From assembly GCA_012522755.1 (NCBI GenBank), contig JAAYJV010000111.1, positions 1 through 34,524 on the forward strand: 34,524 bases of DNA, in the 5' to 3' direction. Source of the DNA: Candidatus Hydrogenedens sp. (GTDB taxonomy: Bacteria; Hydrogenedentota; Hydrogenedentia; Hydrogenedentales; CAITNO01). Under the pieces are notes generated by a model, which was given only the letters and a program-made list of their open reading frames with translations, did no database searches and was not told the DNA's origin. Below, piece after piece: positions 3,753 through 33,210 of the stretch; the first letter of the stretch is position 1, and each line of letters opens with the position of its first letter. The translations under genes and the position numbers were made by a program.

Positions 3753-3974
3753 ATGAATATCACACGAACTCTGTTGCCTTGGGTGCTCTTTCTGATCATG
3801 TCTCTGCTCGCCGCTTTTTTCTGGCATCAATCCGATCAGCGGGGCCGACGCATACACGAACTGGGCGAAGAAATACAACGCTTTGAGAAACAGCTGCACC
3901 GGCTCAGCGAAGATATTCTTGATCTGAAAGCACTGGCCGAAGAACAGCAGGAAAAGGCCGGGGAAGGCCCTTGA
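3753..3974 (+). CDS. Small single-pass membrane coiled-coil protein
   Basis: This gene encodes 73 residues. One hydrophobic helix (about residues 7-25, LLPWVLFLIMSLLAAFF) is followed by a highly charged segment, residues 30-68, with heptad-spaced leucines and isoleucines, predicting a short coiled coil. The topology resembles FtsL/DivIC-type bitopic proteins, but I see no family signature. AAAGGAG lies six bases upstream of the ATG, and the gene follows the UbiB-family gene by 20 bases, so it is very likely real and cotranscribed. A role as partner or anchor of the kinase is a guess from position only. Confidence 0.7.
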   Translation: MNITRTLLPWVLFLIMSLLAAFFWHQSDQRGRRIHELGEEIQRFEKQLHRLSEDILDLKALAEEQQEKAGEGP

Positions 3975-4154
3975 GCGTCAGAGTGCGGTCTGCGGATCAA
4001 CGTGCCTTCTCCTTTCAACAGCCCATAATGCGGAAGCAGGACTGGTCAACGGGGAATTGCTTTCAGAGAAAAGAATAAAGATCGATCTTTGGAGGAGCTG
4101 CGCTGCTATTAACAGAAATAACGCTGTGAAAATAAAGACGTTACTCGGGGGAAA

Positions 4155-4183
4155 TTGACTGATCCTTCTCTTTCCGGTATACT
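4155..4183 (+). promoter_or_regulatory. Strong sigma-70 promoter upstream of rny
   Basis: TTGACT (4155-4160), a 17-base spacer and TATACT (4178-4183) form a near-consensus housekeeping promoter. Transcription would begin near 4190, giving a leader of about 260 bases before rny. No other gene lies between. Confidence 0.75.
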
Positions 4184-4254
4184 ATGTCTGTTGTAAAGTA
4201 ACAGTTTTGATAGCGGAAAGCATGAAAACAATCGATAACCCAGATGATAAAATA

Positions 4255-4293
4255 ACACCGGTTTCCGGTGCTTTGGACCGGGTGTCCTTTTTT
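4255..4293 (+). terminator. Putative attenuator hairpin with alternative pairing
   Basis: ACACCGG (4255-4261) can pair with CCGGGTGT (4278-4285, one bulged G), followed by CC and six T (4288-4293), as in an intrinsic terminator. The same CACCGG can instead pair with CCGGTG at 4265-4270. The two folds exclude each other, as expected of a switch. Confidence 0.4.
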
Positions 4294-4336
4294 AGAGCAG
4301 CCATAGCGGCATTGTGTCACTGGCTCCTGATTACTC

Positions 4337-4382
4337 AACCGCCACAGCCTGTGGATCGTTTCCGACAGGGGGCGGTTTTTTT
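4337..4382 (+). terminator. Intrinsic terminator in the rny leader
   Basis: AACCGCC (4337-4343) pairs with GGCGGTT (4371-4377). An inner stem CCTGT/ACAGG (4348-4352, 4365-4369) continues the helix, and the T-run covers 4376-4382. It lies 68 bases before the rny start, so rny expression must read through it or use another promoter. Confidence 0.6.
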
Positions 4383-4450
4383 CATGGTTCTCCGCCGTCT
4401 TTTCCAACCTCAGTTAAAGACTGATCCCACTCAGGGACAGGGAGATATCC

Positions 4451-6010
4451 ATGATGATTTATTATGCTATTGCCGCAATTTGCGGTATTGGTATCGGCGC
4501 TCTTGTGATGATGGCGATTTCCAGAATCCGGGCTGGCAACTATTTGAGCCTGGCCCGGCGTGAGGCTGCGCAGATTCTTTCCGATGCGGAACGCGACAGT
4601 GCGGCCATTGTAAAAGAAGGCAAAACGACACTCAAAGAACTGGAAATCAATTTACGGGGCAAGGTGGAAAACGAAGCGAGGGAACTGCGCCGGGAAATCA
4701 GTGCCCAGGAAAACCGCATTGCCTCCAAAGAGCAGAACCTGGACAACCGCGCACAGACTCTCGACAAAACAGCCGCATCCCTCACAAGCCAGGAAAGAAG
4801 TCTGGCGGCCCGTGAAAAAGAAAATGACCAGGAACGCAATAAATTGGCGGCCATGGTTCAGGAACAGATGGTCAAGCTGGAAAATATCGCCGGTCTCACA
4901 GCGGAACAGGCCCGTAAAGAATTGTATGTGCGCCTGGAAAACGAAGTGAAAAGAGATTGTGCCTTCGAACTCAAACGGGTGGAAGACGAACTGCGTGAAA
5001 ATGCGGAGAAAAAAGCACGGTGGATCATCGGCGAGGCGCTGCAGCGTTGTGCGGCTGATCATGTGGCCGAAAGTACCGTGTCCGTGGTGCCCCTGCCCAA
5101 CGATGAAATGAAAGGGCGGATCATCGGCCGTGAAGGACGCAATATCCGCACGCTCGAAAGTGCCACAGGCATCAGCGTCATCATTGACGATACCCCTGAA
5201 GCCGTTGTTCTTTCCGGTTTTGATCCCGTACGCCGTGAAGTGGCCCGTATCGCTCTCGAACGGCTTATTGAAGACGGGCGCATCCATCCCGCACGGATTG
5301 AAGACATGGTCGAAAAAGTGACCCAGGAAATGACCGCCTGCATCCGCGAGAGAGGCGAACAGGCCTGTCTGGATGCCGGAGTACATGGTCTCCATCCGGA
5401 GATTGTGAAACTTCTGGGCCGGCTCAGCTTCCGTACCTCTTACGGGCAGAATGTGCTGCGTCATTCCCTGGAAGTTTGTCACCTCTCCGGTGTCATGGCG
5501 GCGGAACTGGGCGTGAACGTGCAGGAAGCCAAACGTGCCGGGCTTATTCATGACATCGGCAAAGCGCTCACCCACGAAGTGGAAGGGTCTCACGCCGTTC
5601 TGGGTCATGACATGGCCAAGCGTTATGGTGAGAATGAAGCTGTCGCCAATGCCATCGGCTCGCACCATGCCGAGATGCCCATTACAAGCCTTGTTTCCGT
5701 GCTCGTGCAGGCTGCTGACGCCATGTCGGCCGCACGGCCCGGCGCAAGAAGCGAAATGCTGCAACACTATATCAAACGGCTCGAACAGCTTGAAGAACTC
5801 GTCAACGGCTTCAATGGTGTGGAACGTTCCTTCGCCATTCAGGCCGGTCGTGAAGTGCGTGTTGTCGTGCATCCCGATAAAGTGAACGATGCGGAAGCGG
5901 CTCAGCTTTCCCGGGATCTCGCCCGCAAGGTGGAAACGGAAATGACCTATCCCGGCCAGATCCGTGTTACCGTTGTCCGCGAAACCCGTGCCGTGGAAAT
6001 CGCCAAATAG
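4451..6010 (+). CDS. rny: Ribonuclease Y
   Basis: RNase Y is a membrane-anchored endoribonuclease that starts mRNA decay and processing. The layout is canonical. An N-terminal membrane helix (about residues 2-23) is followed by a long charged coiled coil (about 30-200). A KH RNA-binding domain follows with [12 protein letters not shown] near residue 220. The HD domain has its metal site in HSLEVCHL and GLIHDIGKA (HD pair near 365-366), followed by GSHHAE. The 519-residue length is typical. GGGAG sits seven bases before the ATG; a second ATG follows directly and either could be used. The long leader with two terminator-like hairpins suggests expression is controlled at the RNA level. A terminator follows at 6035. 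Confidence 0.97.
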
Positions 6011-6034
6011 ATAAACAGTGATAACGATCATACC

Positions 6035-6098
6035 CGCCGGATGTGTGGTATCCCTTGTTGACAGGTTGTGCAAAGGGGCCGCGCATCCGGCGATTTTT
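6035..6098 (+). terminator. Intrinsic terminator after rny
   Basis: CGCCGGATG (6035-6043) pairs perfectly with CATCCGGCG (6084-6092), followed by A and five T. The 40-base loop can form its own small hairpin. The position 25 bases after the rny stop fits. Confidence 0.75.
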
Positions 6099-6108
6099 GT
6101 TTGTTGCT

Positions 6109-6408
6109 GGGGATAGGGGACAGCGGATAGCGTGGGACATGGTTCAGGTAGGGGCACGGCATGCCGTGCCCATTTCACCCTGACCAACCAGAGCCCTTCG
6201 CGTCACGCTATTGGTCTGGGCTTTATTCTGGATCCAGTTCATCAGCAATATCCGGGGGGAATCGGTCGGATCGGTCGGATGTGCGATGGGCTGTGGTTGG
6301 GCTTGGGGTATCATGCTGGGACAGTGGCCAAGTGGACCAACTGGGCACGGCATGCCGTGCCCCTACCTGCGCGACTCTCGTCCCTCGCCCCTCGCTCCTC
6401 GCCCCTCG
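6109..6408. repeat. Composite palindromic intergenic element, copy A
   Basis: This fills most of the 480-base gap between rny and the next gene. In order it holds three in-phase G-rich heptamers (6109-6129, GGGGATA type), a 20-bp perfect palindrome GGGCACGGCATGCCGTGCCC (6152-6171), and a core with two to three 9-bp units GTCGGATCG near 6267-6283. The same palindrome then recurs at 6343-6362, followed by four C-rich heptamers (6381-6408, CCCCTCG type). The outer flanks of the two palindromes are inverted: AGGTAGGGG on the left (6146-6154) and its reverse complement on the right, ending at 6368. The element therefore has terminal inverted repeats of about 27 bp. Copies B and C share this order. 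Confidence 0.85.
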
Positions 6409-6490
6409 TCATAATTCAGGGGCGCCCATCCTTTATGTTATGATTAATTCTGTGTCTTTTTGTTGAGAATTTCAGTGCTGGAGTGTACTC

Positions 6491-8491
6491 ATGGTTCTTG
6501 TAATCCTTGCCCTTCTGTTTGGCTCTTTCTTTTCATTGTCCTCCTGTGCCGAGGAGAGCGAGATTCTGAATTATCGGGACATTTACCCCGATACCTGGGT
6601 GGCCAGCGACGGGTTGGGTCGTACCATGCCCGGTCATGAGGAGGTGGGCTCTCCGAAGATGGATCAGCGCCGAGTGGCGGGAATGTTTTATATCACCTGG
6701 CATGGTGACCATCTTCACAGAAAGAAAAGTCCTTACACTGGCGATGTTACCCGTATTCTTGAGGCTGATCCCGGTGCGCGCTTCGACGGGAAACACCCTC
6801 TCTGGGAGGACGTGATGTACCACTGGGGCGAGCCGGAGATGGGTTATTTTCTGAGCAAGGATGAGTGGGTGATCCGCAAAGACATGTCCATGCTCTCCGA
6901 TGCGGGCGTGGATGTTCTGATCATGGATGTGACCAATGCCCAGCGTTATTGGGATGAATGGGAAGTCGTGTTTTCCACCCTTCAGGCGATGAAAGCAGAG
7001 GGCAACAAGGTTCCTTATTTCCTGTTCTGGTCTTTCAATGGCCAATCCTATCTCGTGGTTCGTGAACTTTACGAGCGCATTTATAAAGAGGAGAAATACA
7101 AGGACCTGTGGTTTTACTGGGACGGCAAGCCCTTGCTTCTGTATAACCACAATCCGCGGGTGGACGCTACCGGAGGCGATATCAGACATCCCAATCCGAA
7201 CTATGATGCTGAAGCGGTCACCAATCCGGAGCATCCCCACTATGGTGACCCGGAATATACGCAGGAAGAATATACGGATTATCCTCAGGAGATCCGGGAT
7301 TTCTTCACTCTGCGCACCATGTGGTGGGGCTATTATGAGTGGGCGGGAGAGCGGGCGGCCGGTGCGGAAGATTACTGGAGCTTCGGCTATGAGCTGAACG
7401 ATGAACGGGTGCGCAATCTGAAGCCTTCTGAACTGCTGTCCACGCATCAGGGAAAAAAAGAGCAGGGGGCTGTCACCCCGGCGCAACATTCCAACAGCAT
7501 GACGGGTAAATGCTGGACACGCCAGAACTTTGAGCCGCCCCTGAACGAATATGATATGCCCCAGCCCACATTTGTGCCCTGGCTGGGTGAAACAGTGGCC
7601 AACCCGGAAGGCTACGGCATTTATTTCCAGGATCGCTGGGATGAGATTCTGCCCCAGAATCCGGAGTTTCTCTACATCAACGATTGGAACGAATGGACAG
7701 CGGGCAAATACCATCCGGAAGAAGGGCATACGGTACGCTTTCTCGGTCGTGAGAGCAACTACTATTTCGTCGATCAGTACAATGCCGAATTCAACCGTAC
7801 CATCCAGCCCATGAAAGGCGGCTATACGGACAACTACTATATGCAGATGGCGCAAAACCTGCGCAAGTACAAAGGAGCCCGGCCCATCCCCGAGCTGAAG
7901 GGATACAGTGACATGGCCGTGGATGGTGATTTTTCAGATTGGGATTCCGTGCAGGTGGAGTACAGAGATACCATTGGCGACACTTTCCACCGCGACTATC
8001 TCGGCTATGGCGGTCTGGTTCACAAGAACGATTCGGGGCGCAACGATATCATCACGGTGAAAGTCGCGGTGACAGAAGAGGAGATTTTTTTCCTGGCGGA
8101 AAGCCGGGAAGCGCTGAGCCCCGCCTCGGATCCCAACTGGATGCTGCTTTTCATTGATGCCGATCAGGACAGTTCAACGGGCTGGTATGGCTATGACTAT
8201 CTGATCAATCATGAAGTTCTGTCTGAAGAAACAACAACAGTGAAACGCTATGAAGGCGACAACAGCAAAGGACATTGGGAGACGGTGGCGGAAATTCCTT
8301 TCCGATATGAAGGCGCTTTTCTTGAGTTGTCTCTTCCCCGTGCTGTTCTCCAGCTGGAGGGCGATGCCCTGTCTTTTGATATGAAATGGAGCGACAATGC
8401 GCAGGAGCTGGTCGATCCCATTTCATTGTGTACCCACGGAGATACGGCTCCCAATCGACGTTTCAATTATCGCTGCATCTGGAAGAAATAA
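6491..8491 (+). CDS. Secreted GH71/GH99-like lipoprotein with C-terminal CBM9-like domain
   Basis: This is a predicted exported carbohydrate-active protein of 666 residues. The N-terminus is a hydrophobic signal ending in a lipobox, LSSC (Cys near residue 19), so it is probably a lipoprotein. A TIM-barrel-like catalytic region (about 60-440) holds GMFYITWHGDH at the first strand, VDVLIMDVTNAQ, YFLFWSFNGQ, and DWNEW at 398-402. The last resembles the WNEW-type acidic motif of GH71/GH99 endo-acting enzymes, so E401 is the candidate catalytic acid. Residues about 475-660 (VDGDFSDW, then beta strands with FLAESRE and LLFIDADQDSSTGW) resemble a CBM9/DOMON-like sugar-binding domain. GGAG lies seven bases before the ATG. 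The next gene starts 58 bases downstream, so the two are probably cotranscribed. The substrate is unknown; the family is judged by motif only. Confidence 0.75.
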   Translation: MVLVILALLFGSFFSLSSCAEESEILNYRDIYPDTWVASDGLGRTMPGHEEVGSPKMDQRRVAGMFYITWHGDHLHRKKSPYTGDVTRILEADPGARFDGKHPLWEDVMYHWGEPEMGYFLSKDEWVIRKDMSMLSDAGVDVLIMDVTNAQRYWDEWEVVFSTLQAMKAEGNKVPYFLFWSFNGQSYLVVRELYERIYKEEKYKDLWFYWDGKPLLLYNHNPRVDATGGDIRHPNPNYDAEAVTNPEHPHYGDPEYTQEEYTDYPQEIRDFFTLRTMWWGYYEWAGERAAGAEDYWSFGYELNDERVRNLKPSELLSTHQGKKEQGAVTPAQHSNSMTGKCWTRQNFEPPLNEYDMPQPTFVPWLGETVANPEGYGIYFQDRWDEILPQNPEFLYINDWNEWTAGKYHPEEGHTVRFLGRESNYYFVDQYNAEFNRTIQPMKGGYTDNYYMQMAQNLRKYKGARPIPELKGYSDMAVDGDFSDWDSVQVEYRDTIGDTFHRDYLGYGGLVHKNDSGRNDIITVKVAVTEEEIFFLAESREALSPASDPNWMLLFIDADQDSSTGWYGYDYLINHEVLSEETTTVKRYEGDNSKGHWETVAEIPFRYEGAFLELSLPRAVLQLEGDALSFDMKWSDNAQELVDPISLCTHGDTAPNRRFNYRCIWKK

Positions 8492-26051: not shown

Positions 26052-28787
26052 TTATCCCCCTTCAGAAGTTTCCGGCTGCGGAGCTTGAACGGCTTCTTCG
26101 TCGTCCGTGGGAGCCATGATGGCCATCAGATCTTTGCGCCCGGAACGCCTGGCTATGCTCAGTGGAGTCACGCCGGAGGCATCGGCCAGATCAGGCCGGG
26201 CCCCGGCCTGGAGCAACAGTTCCACCATGTCAGGATTGCCATGTTCAGCAGCCCGGTGCAGGGGTCTTTCTTTGTTCTTCGCAGGCGCAATAATATTGGG
26301 GTCGGCCCCTCTTTCCAGAAGAAGTTGTGTCATGGGAAGATTGTCCAGTGCCACGGCACGATACAATGCGGAACTTCCGAAAAGAGCGCCATCCTTCAAT
26401 TCAGGATAGGCATCCAGAAACTGACGGAGGAATTCCTCATCTTTTCGCTCCACTGTATTGCACAATTCGTCCAGGAGAACCCCCTGAAAGAAGGCCACAG
26501 AATGTGCCAGCGCAACTTTCGTGGCTTTGTCCCGTGAGCCGGGCTCTTTCAGGTTTTCATAAAATGCCTTGGACTTTTTCAGAACATCCATGGGCGTTTC
26601 ACCGGCAACATTGCGCTGGGTGAAGTCTGCGCCCCGGGTCAGCAGCAGCGAAGCGGTGCGATGGAAACCACCCTGCAAGCAACGGTGCAGGGCCGTGTTG
26701 CCTTCGCCGTCCGGCTCATTCACAGGTACGCCCCGCAGAAGGAACATCTGGATGGGGCCCCAATGGCCGTTTGTGGCGCTGTAGTGCAAAGGCAGACAGC
26801 CCGCACGATTCCGTATATGGAAATCGGCTCCATTGCTCACGAGATGGTTGATGTTGATGATCTGTCCGCGCTCAGAGGCAAGATGAAGGGGCGTATTTCC
26901 GTCATTATCCACGGCGTTTACAAGAGCACCTTCTTCCATAAGTATCTTGATGGTATCCTCACAGCCGCGCAACGCCGCCAGATGAAGCGGGGTCCTTCCC
27001 TGTGCGTTGACAGTATTCACATCCAACTTGTGGTCTACCAACCAGCGTACGGCCTGAGCATCTTCGTTGGTGGCCGCCGGGAAGAGCAGCGTTTCACTCT
27101 CCTGGTTCTCAACCTCCAGCGATGCCCCTGCTTCAGCCAGCATCCTGGCGGCGGCATAATGATCTTCCTGCAAAGCGATGAACAGAGGCGTCCGGCCCAT
27201 CTCATCGGTCGCATCAATAACCGCACCTGAATCCAGCAGTACCCGGATCAGTTTTGTGTCGCCCAGCAGTGCCGCCGTATGGAGGGAAGCCCGGCTTTTC
27301 TCGTCACTGATATCCGGATCGGCTCCGGTTTCCAGCAACAGTTTCGCCACAGCAAGATGCCCCTTCGCCACAGCGAGATTGAGGGGAGTACGGCCTTGCT
27401 TGTCAGCGGCGTCTGTATCAGCTCCCTGAGAGAGGAGGAAACGGATCATCCCTTCATGACCGGCATCGGCGGCTATGTGAAGAGGCGTCCACCGTCGCTT
27501 TTCAGTGACTTGTAACCGGGCACCCAGAGTAAGAAGCTGTTCAGCCATGACCGTATTGTTTTTTTCCGCCGCCAGATGCAGAGGTGTATACGCATCGGCC
27601 CGGCGAGACTCCAGCACAGCGCCCCTGTCCAGCAGAAAATTGAAGACCTCTCCAAGACTTCTGTCCACGGCGATGTGGATGGGTGTATCGCCCTTGGCTG
27701 AGGGATAGCCCAGACGCGCACCGCGGCTGATCAGAAAATCCATCATGTCCAGATTACTGTCCATAGCTGCATGACACAGCAGAGTCCATCCATAATAGGA
27801 ACTGTCGCGGCTGTCAGGACTCACACCATGCTTGAAAAAAAGATCCAGCACTTCCTTGCGACCGGCACGGGTTGCCAGAGAAGGCGGTGTTTCCCCTTCC
27901 ATATTGCCAAGAAGACGGACCCCGGCATCCAACATGACTTCCACTACCTTCGGATTGCCAGAGCCCATGGCTGAAATCATGACAGACTGCCCCGCCTGGT
28001 TCATGAGGCTCAGTTGATCCGGCTCATGTTCGGCATACCACTTGATGGCTGGCAGATCGCCCAGACCGGCATCCATGAATACATCGGGCTTGAATCCCAT
28101 CTCACGGAAAAGAGCGGTGATATCCCAGTGTTCATTGACAGCGGCCGCATGGAAAGCACAAAAATATCTCTCATCAGAGAAACTTGCCAGAGGATCTTCG
28201 CCCAACTCCACAAAGCGCCTGCAACTGTCCACTCCGCCGGCATCGGTTGCCTCAAAAAAAGGCGTGTAGTCCCGCTCATTCATGCTGTGGAGGGGGATCC
28301 CCATTTCCACAAGCATATCAATGGTGTACACATCATTTGCCCGCGCCGCCAGATGAAGAGCGGTATTGCCCTTCTCGTCCTGCGCCATCAGATTGTCGCC
28401 CCGCTCCACAAGCAGCATGATCACCTCAGGCATTTCATTTTCAGACGCCAGGAGCAGAGCATTTTTTCCCTGATCATCGCTCTCATCGGCCACGGCCCCG
28501 CCTTCAATCAGGTCCTTGGAAGCATACAGATCCTTTGCGGCCACGGCCTGAAGCAGACTGGTGAAGACCGGTGCTGTGATGTCTTCAATATCGCCGCTTT
28601 CTTCAACGATCACACTCCCGGAGGGGATATCCGTTATGGAATCAACAGCCGCGCGCATGCCTTCGATGTTTTCATTACCCGGGCTTTCAACAGCGGCTGG
28701 AGGAATATCCGCTTCTTCCCCAAGAGAGGAAAATACCGGCACAAGGGTCAGGCAAAGCGTAAAGAACAAGGGCAGCAGATACCGCAT
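26052..28787 (-). CDS. Large exported ankyrin-repeat protein
   Basis: This protein has 911 residues with an N-terminal signal peptide (LLPLFFTLCLTLVPVFSSLG, cleavage near residue 23) and no other clear membrane segment, so it is probably periplasmic. After an acidic linker (25-75), roughly 20 ankyrin repeats fill the rest. Typical units are GNTALHLAA, GRTPLNLAVAKGHLAVAKLLLETGADPD, GRTPLHLAALRGCEDTIKILMEEGALVN and RPLHRAAEHGNPDMVELLLQAGARPD. A non-repeat helical break is near residues 740-790. Ankyrin arrays bind proteins; no catalytic domain is seen. GGAG lies about ten bases before the ATG. It heads an operon with the DUF3810 peptidase and is divergent from the YhaO-like gene, with 260 bases between. 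Confidence 0.9.
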   Translation of the reverse strand: MRYLLPLFFTLCLTLVPVFSSLGEEADIPPAAVESPGNENIEGMRAAVDSITDIPSGSVIVEESGDIEDITAPVFTSLLQAVAAKDLYASKDLIEGGAVADESDDQGKNALLLASENEMPEVIMLLVERGDNLMAQDEKGNTALHLAARANDVYTIDMLVEMGIPLHSMNERDYTPFFEATDAGGVDSCRRFVELGEDPLASFSDERYFCAFHAAAVNEHWDITALFREMGFKPDVFMDAGLGDLPAIKWYAEHEPDQLSLMNQAGQSVMISAMGSGNPKVVEVMLDAGVRLLGNMEGETPPSLATRAGRKEVLDLFFKHGVSPDSRDSSYYGWTLLCHAAMDSNLDMMDFLISRGARLGYPSAKGDTPIHIAVDRSLGEVFNFLLDRGAVLESRRADAYTPLHLAAEKNNTVMAEQLLTLGARLQVTEKRRWTPLHIAADAGHEGMIRFLLSQGADTDAADKQGRTPLNLAVAKGHLAVAKLLLETGADPDISDEKSRASLHTAALLGDTKLIRVLLDSGAVIDATDEMGRTPLFIALQEDHYAAARMLAEAGASLEVENQESETLLFPAATNEDAQAVRWLVDHKLDVNTVNAQGRTPLHLAALRGCEDTIKILMEEGALVNAVDNDGNTPLHLASERGQIININHLVSNGADFHIRNRAGCLPLHYSATNGHWGPIQMFLLRGVPVNEPDGEGNTALHRCLQGGFHRTASLLLTRGADFTQRNVAGETPMDVLKKSKAFYENLKEPGSRDKATKVALAHSVAFFQGVLLDELCNTVERKDEEFLRQFLDAYPELKDGALFGSSALYRAVALDNLPMTQLLLERGADPNIIAPAKNKERPLHRAAEHGNPDMVELLLQAGARPDLADASGVTPLSIARRSGRKDLMAIMAPTDDEEAVQAPQPETSEGG

Positions 28788-29047
28788 GAGAGCAAGTCTC
28801 CAGCATAATGGTTATAATCAGGAGCAGGGAAACAATATCCCGCGACTCGGGCCACAGAGAAACTCTCTCTCCATAACGTTCCAGATGCATCGCGGGGATA
28901 CAATAAATCACCTTCAGTATAATGACCGTGCATGATTTTTTCAATCTCTTCACGGCCTGAAAAATAAACTTGGAATCCAAAGTGATTTGTGACACACTAT
29001 AGACATACTGTATTCTACACCCTGTCATCAGGAGGATTGTGTTTACC

Positions 29048-30193
29048 ATGAAACGTGTCAGACTTTTACATGCAGGAGCCTTGCGCCTGGACAGCTGTTT
29101 CAGTGCTTTGGGGCTATCAGCCGCTGCAGGAGAACAACTGCGCCGGGCCCAGCAGAAAGTGCTTGAGAAACTGGCACAACAGGCCCGGGAATGGCCTGCT
29201 GATCTCATTATCCTCAGCGGTCGTCTCTTTGATACGATTCCTGTCCGTGCTGATACACTGAGCCGGACACTGGAAGCTCTGGAACAGATGGCGCCCACTC
29301 AAATATGTATTCTCCCTGAGGGGGAGGAGGCCGTGCATGATTTGTCGCCCTGGGCCTTCGCCAGGATTCCCGATAATGTCACGGTTTTCACAGAGCCTGA
29401 CTGGATGGCTGCGGAGCATCCCCACCTGCCTGTAACTGTCCACGGGAAAAGGGGTGATTCAGAGGAAGACCTTTCACGTTTTTTTGAGGAACTGTCTTTG
29501 CCCGATGACGGTCGTATCCATCTGGCTGTGATTTTGTATTCCGAAGAAACACCGGCCAGCCTTCCATCACCACCGGCTGGACTGGCCTGGCTGGCCTCAG
29601 GGATGAAGAGACCCGATACCGATCTGAGCCACAAAGATGACGGGATGTCTTCCGTTGTGAGCGATCCTCAGGCACTGTCCTTCAAAGATTGTGGCGAAAA
29701 ATATATGTACAAGGTGGAAATCATACAGGAAGCCGACGGACGTTTCAGACACAGTATGGACACGATTTCTTCCTCATCACTTATTTTCGAAAAACGGACC
29801 ATTGATGCAGCCGATCTCATGGCTCTGGAAGAAAGCAACGGAGAAATACTGGCTTTGTCCACGGCAAACCTCAAGCGTGTATTGCTTCATCTGCAGATTC
29901 AAGGCCGGAAAAGCTGGCGTGACATTGCACATCTGGCCGCTTTTACAAAGCACTTTCGCTCGAAAGTTCAATTTCTTCACGTGGAAGACCTCTCCGAGCT
30001 GGATTCCGCCAGCCTGGAACTGACCGGAGCGGATACGCTCACCCGCGAGGTGGCCGGGCAACTGCTGGATCGTATCAGGGATTGCTCCGCCCTGGAAGAA
30101 AAAAAGCGTCTGGAAATGAGTCTGCATTTGCTTGTTAAAGCAGTGTATGAATCTTCTTCCCCCTTGAAAGAAGAGGAATTTGGTGAACGATGA
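29048..30193 (+). CDS. Degenerate YhaO/SbcD-like metallophosphoesterase-fold protein, metal ligands lost
   Basis: This 381-residue protein follows the block order of the YhaO/SbcD (Mre11-like) nuclease family but lacks the metal ligands. LLHAGALRLDSCF (6-18) aligns with the family start hHAADLHLxSPF, with D replaced by A11 and H by R13. LIILSGRLFD (53-62) aligns with GDLFD, with the ligand Asp replaced by R59. ILPEGEE (88-94) aligns with PGNHD/E, with Asn-His lost. LASGMKR (182-188) aligns with LGHxH, with both His replaced by M186 and R188. DPQALSFKDCGEKYMYKVEI matches the conserved capping strand region. The frame is uninterrupted. AGGAGGA lies 11 bases before ATG 29048, preferred over GTG 29039. 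It overlaps the next gene by ATGA. The alignment is from memory of family motifs, so the identity is probable rather than proven. Confidence 0.7.
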   Translation: MKRVRLLHAGALRLDSCFSALGLSAAAGEQLRRAQQKVLEKLAQQAREWPADLIILSGRLFDTIPVRADTLSRTLEALEQMAPTQICILPEGEEAVHDLSPWAFARIPDNVTVFTEPDWMAAEHPHLPVTVHGKRGDSEEDLSRFFEELSLPDDGRIHLAVILYSEETPASLPSPPAGLAWLASGMKRPDTDLSHKDDGMSSVVSDPQALSFKDCGEKYMYKVEIIQEADGRFRHSMDTISSSSLIFEKRTIDAADLMALEESNGEILALSTANLKRVLLHLQIQGRKSWRDIAHLAAFTKHFRSKVQFLHVEDLSELDSASLELTGADTLTREVAGQLLDRIRDCSALEEKKRLEMSLHLLVKAVYESSSPLKEEEFGER

Positions 30194-33100
30194 TTTTGAA
30201 TGCCCTTTCTTATCTTCATCCGGAAAAACGTACCATGACCACCCATTCCGTGGATCACAGGCGTTGTGTGCTCCACTGTTCGTCTTCCGAAGCGGCACGT
30301 ATGCTCAGTACGGACATGCATCGGCTGAGACCCCTTCCGGAAGACAGCTCACCGGAAGGACCGCTGACTCTTGCCTTGCCAGGTTACAGCACCGTCCGTC
30401 TGGATTATGGTCGCCCGGCCAATCCTCCGGAAGCTGAGAGCCTCTTCCCGGAAGAAGGACAATTTGACAGTGAAGTTGCCTCATCGCAGACTGGTATCCC
30501 TCCTTTCCCCAGCGGTCGGGACCTTTTTCATCTCTCTCTCGGTGATGCCATACAGGCGCAAGCAGAGGGAGAGCCCCTTCTTGCGGTAGAACTGGCTCCC
30601 CTTATTGACACGGGCGATAAAAGCCGCAGTCTGTCAGAAGCTGTTCATGCTCTCGATGAAATGGCCGTGTCTCTGGGCCGGGGAAACCGACCGGGAACCT
30701 TTCTCACCACCTTGAAGGAAAAAACTCATCGCCTCGCTGCGGAGAAAAAAGAAGCCTGCGCCGAGCGCCCCGAACTCCTTTCTCTGGCAACCGCCTTGAA
30801 AGAGAGCCGGGAGCGTATGGATACCCTGGAACTGCGCCGTCAGGAACTTCAACAGCAGGTGGATGATCTTACCCGTCAGGGGCTTGATCGTGTGGAATCG
30901 CAGATCAGCGATCTGGAAGCGAAGAGGGACTCTCTGGACTCTGCGCGTCGCCTCGATTCCGATCAGATGGCCGAGCTCAACCGCATGACGACTCTGGTGG
31001 AAACAGCACGCCGCCAATTGGAAAAAACCACGATGGAACTGGAGGTTATCCGTGACGAGATAAAGCTCCTGCCCGGCACTTCTTCTGAAGAACGAACCCC
31101 GCCTCCCACCTTTCCCAACGCCCTCGAACGTGTAATGCGACAGCTTGTCGGTAAAATTGCCGAAAACGAGGCGCGTCTGGAAGAGATTTTCCAGCAGATT
31201 CAGAAAGAAGATGAGCTTATCGCCCAGGCACAAAGCGAGATAAACGCTCTTCCCGATTTCTCAAGAATCTCCGCCAGTCCCATAGATTTGCTCAATCAAC
31301 TGCTTCAGTCTTTCAAAAGCGCTATGAGCAGTCAGGAACGGGAGGCGCAGCGTTGTGTCCGCCTGGAGGATGAACTGGAACACTTGCAACGCCTTTGGGA
31401 TACGGACGGTCCTGTCTTTGAGCAAGCCGGAGATTTTACAGCTGTAATGGTGGAAAACCAACAGAAACGAAAAGCCGCCAAAGCCAGGTATCCCCAGGTC
31501 TCGGAAGAAGTGGAGGAAAAACAGAATCTCCGGGATGAAAAACTTGATTTCCAGAAAGGCCAGCAGTGGATTGCCATAGGATGTTTCATATTGACCTGTG
31601 CCGCTCTGGCCGCCTTCTTCATTCGTGGCAATCCGCCGCTCCTCCTGGTGGCCGCTGCTGTCTTCGGGAGTTTTCTGATATTTTTCCTGCAAGCCGTCTT
31701 TGCCCATCGCCAGGTTCAACGACTCAACCAGATTATAGCCGAAGATCACGGGGAACTCGATCTGCTTCAGGCGACTATGGAACATAAAGATACGCATATT
31801 GAAGAGTTGATGGTTCGCCTGGGGTGTCAGACTCCCCGGGAGTTGGAGGCTCGCTACGACAGGCACAAGGAACTGTCGAAGAAAATACGCATAACAGCCG
31901 AAGAGCTCGCCCAGGAGCAGGCACTGCTTGCCGAAAGCGAAGAGCGTATACCGGCCCTTTTGGAGCGTCTTTGCGAAACCCTTTCGCAGGTCGATGAAAT
32001 GCCGGAAAGCGCCGCAGCCATGGATTCCTGTGTGACCAGCGCCATAGCCAAATATCACCGCCACAAAGATCTGAAACGAAATCTCACAGACAGACAGAAT
32101 CTGCGGCAGACCCTCTTTGCCCGCAAGTCCTATTTCGAAACAGAAAAAAATAACTGTCAGAAAAAATATGATCAACACGAAGAAGAGCTCCGCACACTCA
32201 TGCGTGAGGCCGGATTCTCGCAGGAATCCCTGTATTCCGAATTGGATGATCTGTGCACCAATTTCCGTTCGTATCTGGAAGATGCAGAAAGCTCTCTCGA
32301 TAAAAGTGATCTGCTGGCCAGGCAAAAGCAGAAGCTGGAAGAACGCTTGGAAAATGAAAAAGAACAGCAGAGCCGCTATGAAAAACAGCGTGAGGAACTG
32401 CTGGAAAAATTGGATTTCCCGAGTCTGGAGATTGCACGGGAGGCCGGAGAACTGGGTGCGGAATTCAGAACCATTCAAAAAGAGATTGAGGAGCTCAGGG
32501 CGCAAAAGGACAGATATCTGCAGGGGACTACCCGGGTCAATGGCGAACTGCTGCTTCCCGAAGAACTGGCCGCTGAAGAGGGGGAGGGCCCGTTGCGACA
32601 GCTCAGCTCAACCCTCAGCCGTGTGGAAAAAGAATACACGGCCACCAGACAACAGTGGCTGGATGGCTGGACAAGATACAGCCGACTCACCACTGAAGAG
32701 CGGCTCCCGGGAATCATCGATGAAGAACTCACTTGCACTCACAGTTCACTGGAGACAGCCCAGCAGTTGATCAGCGCAGGAGCACTGACAGTATCGCTCA
32801 TTCAGGAGGCTCTGCTTACAGGACGGCCCGAACGCTGCGGACGCATTGCCGCGAAAGCAAGCGAATTGCTTCAATCCATCCAATGCGATGTGCTCGTGCA
32901 GTTGAGCATTACTCCCGAAGGGCGGGCTTGCATTGCAACGGAAGTAACAGCAGACCAAGAAGAGCCCGCGCCTCTCCTGATCTATACGGCTGTTAAAATC
33001 GCCGCGGCACTGGTTCTGGCCGGTGAAGAAAAGCGCAGACAATTCATCGTTGATGCGGCACTGCAACAGCAGACTCCGCCTTTGGAGTCCCAGGACTTCT

Positions 33101-33210
33101 ACGGCCTCCTCGAAGCATTGCCCGCTCACTGGCAGACACTGGTGGTTACGGAGAATGCGGAGCTGGCCGAAGCCGGTGCAGCCCGGGGATGGGCATCAGA
33201 GAGCTTGTAG
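30190..33210 (+). CDS. Degenerate YhaN/SbcC-like membrane coiled-coil protein, Walker motifs lost
   Basis: This 1006-residue protein is built like the YhaN (Rad50/SbcC-like) family: a globular N-terminus, long coiled coils (about 165-455 and 505-860), two membrane helices in the middle (about 460-479 and 484-503), and a globular C-terminus. Where Walker A (GPNEAGKST) is expected near residue 30, the sequence is SSSEAARML (31-39). The Glu-Ala is kept but Gly-Lys-Ser is gone. FHLSLGDAIQAQ resembles the family FAFGLDELQ segment. The C-terminus has no ABC signature, and the Walker B equivalent is FIVDAALQQQ without the second acid. The start at 30190 overlaps the previous stop as ATGA, indicating coupled translation; ATG 30235 is less likely. 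It probably forms a complex with the YhaO-like partner at the membrane, without ATPase activity. Function unknown. Confidence 0.68.
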   Translation: MILNALSYLHPEKRTMTTHSVDHRRCVLHCSSSEAARMLSTDMHRLRPLPEDSSPEGPLTLALPGYSTVRLDYGRPANPPEAESLFPEEGQFDSEVASSQTGIPPFPSGRDLFHLSLGDAIQAQAEGEPLLAVELAPLIDTGDKSRSLSEAVHALDEMAVSLGRGNRPGTFLTTLKEKTHRLAAEKKEACAERPELLSLATALKESRERMDTLELRRQELQQQVDDLTRQGLDRVESQISDLEAKRDSLDSARRLDSDQMAELNRMTTLVETARRQLEKTTMELEVIRDEIKLLPGTSSEERTPPPTFPNALERVMRQLVGKIAENEARLEEIFQQIQKEDELIAQAQSEINALPDFSRISASPIDLLNQLLQSFKSAMSSQEREAQRCVRLEDELEHLQRLWDTDGPVFEQAGDFTAVMVENQQKRKAAKARYPQVSEEVEEKQNLRDEKLDFQKGQQWIAIGCFILTCAALAAFFIRGNPPLLLVAAAVFGSFLIFFLQAVFAHRQVQRLNQIIAEDHGELDLLQATMEHKDTHIEELMVRLGCQTPRELEARYDRHKELSKKIRITAEELAQEQALLAESEERIPALLERLCETLSQVDEMPESAAAMDSCVTSAIAKYHRHKDLKRNLTDRQNLRQTLFARKSYFETEKNNCQKKYDQHEEELRTLMREAGFSQESLYSELDDLCTNFRSYLEDAESSLDKSDLLARQKQKLEERLENEKEQQSRYEKQREELLEKLDFPSLEIAREAGELGAEFRTIQKEIEELRAQKDRYLQGTTRVNGELLLPEELAAEEGEGPLRQLSSTLSRVEKEYTATRQQWLDGWTRYSRLTTEERLPGIIDEELTCTHSSLETAQQLISAGALTVSLIQEALLTGRPERCGRIAAKASELLQSIQCDVLVQLSITPEGRACIATEVTADQEEPAPLLIYTAVKIAAALVLAGEEKRRQFIVDAALQQQTPPLESQDFYGLLEALPAHWQTLVVTENAELAEAGAARGWASESL

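Follow-up and report, generated by a model that had tools for sequence, protein, structure and literature searches.

The window analysed here, a stretch of 34,524 nucleotides from a metagenome-assembled genome (MAG) of Candidatus Hydrogenedentota (coded G000; f, g and G denote family, genus and genome as grouped in the genome search), carries two long co-oriented neighbouring genes, called O and N below, which occur once in this genome. As the original prediction on this DNA had stated, their frames overlap by ATGA. The pair is a variant form of Mre11-Rad50/YhaO-YhaN and is under selection, at least in O; it stands outside the active enzyme family because the defining catalytic features were looked for and are missing. 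We regard it as probable that the two proteins form a pseudoenzyme complex of Mre11-Rad50 shape, a membrane-anchored scaffold or tether that depends on neither ATP nor nuclease activity.

O had no nuclease match in Pfam or NCBIfam, the pair giving at most weak coiled-coil or membrane matches, and phmmer against PDB sequences returned nothing useful for O or N; folds were therefore compared. Foldseek with an AlphaFold2 (AF2) model of O (predicted local distance difference test, pLDDT, 76.8; alignment of 7 sequences) gave Mre11/SbcD proteins for all of the top 50 matches (E 1e-11 to 1e-9). Judged from its model, O has the metallophosphoesterase fold of Mre11. None of the seven metal ligands is kept: in an alignment with more than 60 relatives, the D-H-D-N-H-H-H columns read A, R, R, G, L, M and R, several of the replacements being arginine or hydrophobic residues. 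The residues previously quoted at the motif places (A11-L-R13, G58-R59, E91-G-E-E94 and G185-M-K-R188) were exact. The histidine of GNH, which follows the metal-binding asparagine of motif III, is not diagnostic, since R, K, E or N stands there in 15 of the 46 rows that have all seven ligands. From this variability in intact relatives, the nuclease chemistry in the order may differ.

The AF2 model of N (pLDDT 77.5, predicted TM-score 0.38, alignment of 6 sequences) matched Smc5/6, condensin, Rad50 and MukB, as the structure comparison proposed with the original prediction had anticipated for both proteins. These matches are inflated by long coiled coils; the terminal lobes nonetheless follow the expected strand-helix order, with low confidence at residues 78-108 of the N-lobe. 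In the model, N has SMC-like head lobes flanking a long coiled coil. N had no ATPase match in Pfam or NCBIfam, AAA_27 included, and GxxxxGK[ST] was not found anywhere in the protein. The stretch SSSEAARML, given earlier as a degenerate Walker A, is indeed at residues 31-39, and its placement looks right because the model has a strand at 25-29 and a helix at 33-45 where strand, P-loop and helix are expected; MAFFT leaves this stretch unaligned, so that the placement rests on a model from 6 sequences. The sole LSxG is at residue 115, away from where the ABC signature belongs, and N has FIVDAAL at Walker B, where relatives have LLDDPFA. Alignment to the relatives thus agrees with the earlier statement that the signature is absent and the second Walker B acid lost. 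The two membrane helices described in the middle of the coil are also present (residues 460-478 and 485-503), and they prove to be a trait of the whole family: at least one hydrophobic helix, and in most cases two, occupies the hairpin place in every full-length N of the Hydrogenedentota family, intact members included.

N was found in 63 and O in 67 of the 80 genomes searched, O orthologues occur in 65 of the 68 genomes of the host order, and the two genes are adjacent in the relatives' loci that were read. Being so widespread and adjacent, the pair is not explicable by chance. Alignments comprised 68 O and 69 N sequences, and intact relatives exceed the Pfam cut-offs for Metallophos and AAA_27. 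All seven ligands are present in 46 O rows (42 genomes of the order, the outgroup Bin13, one distant genome and two soluble second copies). Within the host order, erosion affects 17 of 62 O proteins, and the ATPase is dead in 12 of 65 N proteins. No ligand is kept in the window, in G001 of the same genus, or in G029 and G034; one is kept in G021 (one column gapped) and G022, two in G039, two to four in g19, four in g36 and one to five in g3. The P-loop, the signature and the second Walker B acid are lost in N of g1, g4 and the readable members of g3, and the P-loop and signature in N of G029, G034 and G021. The P-loop of the f1 clade, which is unaligned, was scored lost by hand because its pattern is absent anywhere in those N proteins; N of G004 and G016 (contig ends) and G008 (broken) was seen in part only. 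Loss of the motifs is thus shared, as had been suspected, G001 keeping 0 of 7 ligands and the ATPase loss of the window genus being common to two further genera.

A quick tree was computed with the motif columns removed. The nine dead f1 sequences, the four f7 sequences, g19 and g36 form separate clades in it, each with support of 100, and the fewest changes come to about 6 for O and 3 for N, with erosion in five families; the place of G021, which lies on a long branch, is unsure. Independently of any tree, f1, f5 and f11 each mix intact and eroded members. The direction of change is read as loss because the outgroups (Bin13, KSB1) are intact. The motifs of both activities are dead in g1, G029/G034 and G021, whereas g4 combines a dead ATPase with an intact nuclease and G022 a dead nuclease with an intact ATPase. 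The ATPase was lost first in f1, since the sister genus g4 retains an intact nuclease. The reverse order is indicated by the f7 sequences: G022 and the readable part of G039 have intact ATPase motifs and G029 and G034 dead ones, so that there the nuclease was lost before the ATPase. Independent pairs were too few for a test of association between O loss and N loss. Mre11-Rad50 and SMC proteins are ATP-driven machines, and it is conceivable, if tentative, that Hydrogenedentota converted theirs repeatedly and independently, in either order of loss, to a nuclease-free and ATP-free structural machine in which lasting selection acts on the anchored coil and not on catalysis; a tether between nucleoid and membrane would be one example. 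Such stages of stepwise loss within one order separate the structural from the catalytic role, which makes the distinction testable across sister genera.

Selection was estimated from ratios of nonsynonymous to synonymous substitution (dN/dS). Two motif-less copies of O, at L101 and L102, gave dS 0.30, dN 0.061 and dN/dS 0.20 (binomial p 3e-14 against neutrality), a value which applies to two O alleles and not to their genomes. The two contigs come from g1-like genomes; comparison of L101:2900-4228 with L102 shows them to be almost identical over the upstream ankyrin gene and 81-96% identical over O, which may reflect recombination or mosaic assembly, and for the same reason the ankyrin gene was rejected as a rate yardstick. 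The L101 contig, assigned to a Syntrophobacterales MAG (Delta_02), probably belongs to Hydrogenedentota and was mis-binned; its N gene, which would be a third g1-like copy, was sought and not found, as the contig ends inside O. Between the window and G001, dN/dS was 0.24 for O; for N, pN was 0.29 with saturated synonymous sites. Elsewhere in the order, intact pairs gave 0.10-0.29 and other eroded pairs 0.14-0.34 where dS was usable. The codon comparisons indicate purifying selection on O after motif loss. The dN/dS check proposed earlier accordingly yielded about 0.2 for O and a saturated comparison for N.

Several points weigh against the scaffold reading, and some of them could instead describe a dispensable complex on its way out, its long frames reflecting slow decay under weak selection. 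The window lineage is fast, N and O being 54% and 52% identical to those of G001, as compared with 59-82% for three neighbouring genes; low head conservation also fits decay. The N frame of the g3 genome G008 (L068, gene 3763-6756) contains two in-frame stops, at codons 530 and 755, which means that loss is tolerable. Moreover, the unsaturated dN/dS rests on one pair with mosaic contigs, g1 offers no unsaturated pair for N, and the AlphaFold alignments held 6-7 sequences only. G008 N itself is an apparent pseudogene or an assembly error. We nevertheless hold decay to be unlikely. Simple decay is not indicated, because the same-genus genome has all the losses yet both frames open, and because the dN/dS of the O allele pair is 0.20; taken with the window comparison, the range of 0.20-0.24 is near that of intact pairs. 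Moreover, f1, f7 and f6 all arrived at this outcome with their frames still open, and the hairpin is kept. Of the pattern that the original prediction had named as contrary evidence, one half was found, since g4 relatives keep full nuclease motifs; the other, clearly relaxed selection, is not seen in the window lineage. The main inference of the original prediction, that the pair is probably a pseudoenzyme complex kept by selection and not a pseudogene in decay, is thus supported by the fold, the shared loss and the dN/dS of O.

Conservation along the proteins also shifted. The heads are the most conserved segments of N in intact f1 members (identity 0.54-0.66), whereas the dead f1 clade is down to 0.16-0.20 in the N-lobe and 0.31-0.38 in the C-lobe, and its highest values are found in the coil at 321-370 (0.54) and 571-620 (0.51), which flank the membrane hairpin. 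In O of the two g1 genomes, the N-terminal 115 residues are best kept (0.60-0.72), a region that carries the dimer helices in Mre11, and residues 151-215, with motifs IV and V, reach 0.36-0.40 as against 0.51-0.80 in intact sets. A role as scaffold or tether is plausible and consistent with this shift to the coil near the hairpin, as is the membrane-tethered scaffold suggested in the original prediction. O, with the Mre11/SbcD fold kept and the catalytic-metal residues gone, probably still uses its conserved N-terminal part to pair the N heads. N, with an SMC-like coil and head remnants, would be incapable of ATP hydrolysis by the ABC mechanism, and the hairpin at its coil apex probably holds it in the inner membrane, with the heads in the cytoplasm. 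The two proteins may form an O2N2 complex, which would most likely act as a static scaffold or tether anchored in the membrane, with the membrane-proximal coil and the dimer or partner surface of O as its key surfaces; nucleoid DNA and an envelope complex are candidates for the tethered partner.

The gene neighbourhood bears on another explanation, in which a membrane-anchored complex serves the envelope, this structural role being ancestral and retained while an accessory catalysis was lost several times. In 9 loci from several families (L076-L080, L090, L093, L095, L096), O has a family 2 glycosyltransferase (GT2) gene as its neighbour, in most cases immediately upstream, and a gene for a YfhO-like membrane protein lies about 1 kb away in some of them. 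These neighbours, the apex hairpin present in all and the repeated catalytic loss fit an envelope role, but adjacency is weak evidence, the pair's neighbours are different in g1, g3 and g4, and every catalytic residue is kept in most of the order; we judge this explanation distinctly unlikely.

Second copies of the pair were considered with regard to activity through unusual residues, or to regulation of an active Mre11-Rad50 complex by mixing. Each of the four g19 genomes, in which the membrane-type O is eroded, has an additional YhaO/YhaN-type pair that is soluble, and the loss there may therefore be buffered. Such pairs were read at L144 (G030) and L145 (G048) and also in G040, G046, G027 and G059, with motifs intact where read. 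The g19 pairs speak for these possibilities, but the window genome has no SbcD above the curated cut-off, no AAA_27 above cut-off and no soluble second pair, and no second pair was found in g1, g3, g4 or f6. Residual activity is further opposed by the replacement of all ligands, several by arginine or hydrophobic residues; we judge these possibilities very improbable. Compensation by an active substitute, as a general idea, holds for g19 only. The window genome also encodes AAA_23 proteins of SMC, RecN and RecF size, named by size and domain only.

The features of the pair are listed below. A promoter-like site upstream was not above chance. Divergent from the pair lies a gene for a 911-aa ankyrin-repeat protein (window 26052-28787, minus strand), which adjoins the pair only in g1 relatives among the compared loci. 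A 263-aa open reading frame (ORF) near the contig end (33578-34369, plus strand) has no Pfam match.

Features of the O-N gene pair, in window coordinates
Feature	Position	Strand	Basis
AGGAGG, likely ribosome-binding site of O	29030..29035	+	direct reading
O: YhaO/SbcD/Mre11-like pseudo-nuclease, 381 aa	29048..30193	+	ORF (ATG start), AF2 model, Foldseek, orthologues
Motif I (D-x-H) place in O, reads A11-L12-R13	29078..29086	+	alignment columns
Motif II (G-D) place in O, reads G58-R59	29219..29224	+	alignment
Motif III (PGN(H)D) place in O, reads P90-E-G-E-E94	29315..29329	+	alignment
Motif V (GHxH) place in O, reads G185-M-K-R188	29600..29611	+	alignment
N: YhaN/Rad50-like pseudo-ATPase with coiled coil and membrane hairpin, 1006 aa	30190..33210	+	ORF (ATG start), AF2, Foldseek
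Walker A/P-loop place in N, reads C30-SSSEAARM-L39, loop shortened into helix	30277..30306	+	AF2
Membrane hairpin in N: two hydrophobic helices, residues 460-503, coil apex	31567..31698	+	hydropathy scan
ABC signature (LSKGTVDQ) place in N, reads DQEEPAPLLIY	32953..32985	+	alignment
Walker B (LLDDPF) place in N, reads F952-I-V-D-A-A-L, second acid lost	33043..33063	+	alignment; model strand 951-956

A search of the open-access literature with narrow terms turned up no account of an Mre11-Rad50-type pair in which both partners are inactive. Among the nearest known systems is YhaO/YhaN of Firmicutes, called SbcEF in some work (YhaN and YhaO of Bacillus being SbcE/F); membrane helices are present in Bacillus YhaN. 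That system has the same arrangement as the window pair, O followed by N, a metallophosphoesterase and an AAA_27-type SMC-like partner; unlike it, the window proteins lack all catalytic residues and match neither Pfam family. The role of SbcEF itself is described as poorly characterised (PMC6452273). With SbcCD/Mre11-Rad50, the window pair shares by Foldseek the Mre11/SbcD fold of O and the Rad50/SMC-like fold of N, but it differs in lacking the metal ligands, the P-loop, the signature and a complete Walker B, and in having a membrane hairpin at the coil apex. In VPS29, a scaffold protein of the retromer, a metallophosphoesterase fold likewise has a structural and not an enzymatic role (PMC3101248). 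VPS29 is eukaryotic, has other partners and does not derive from a Mre11-Rad50 pair. Lastly, the soluble g19 pair (L144, L145) belongs to the same two families and has the same gene order as the window pair, but its motifs are intact and it has no membrane hairpin.

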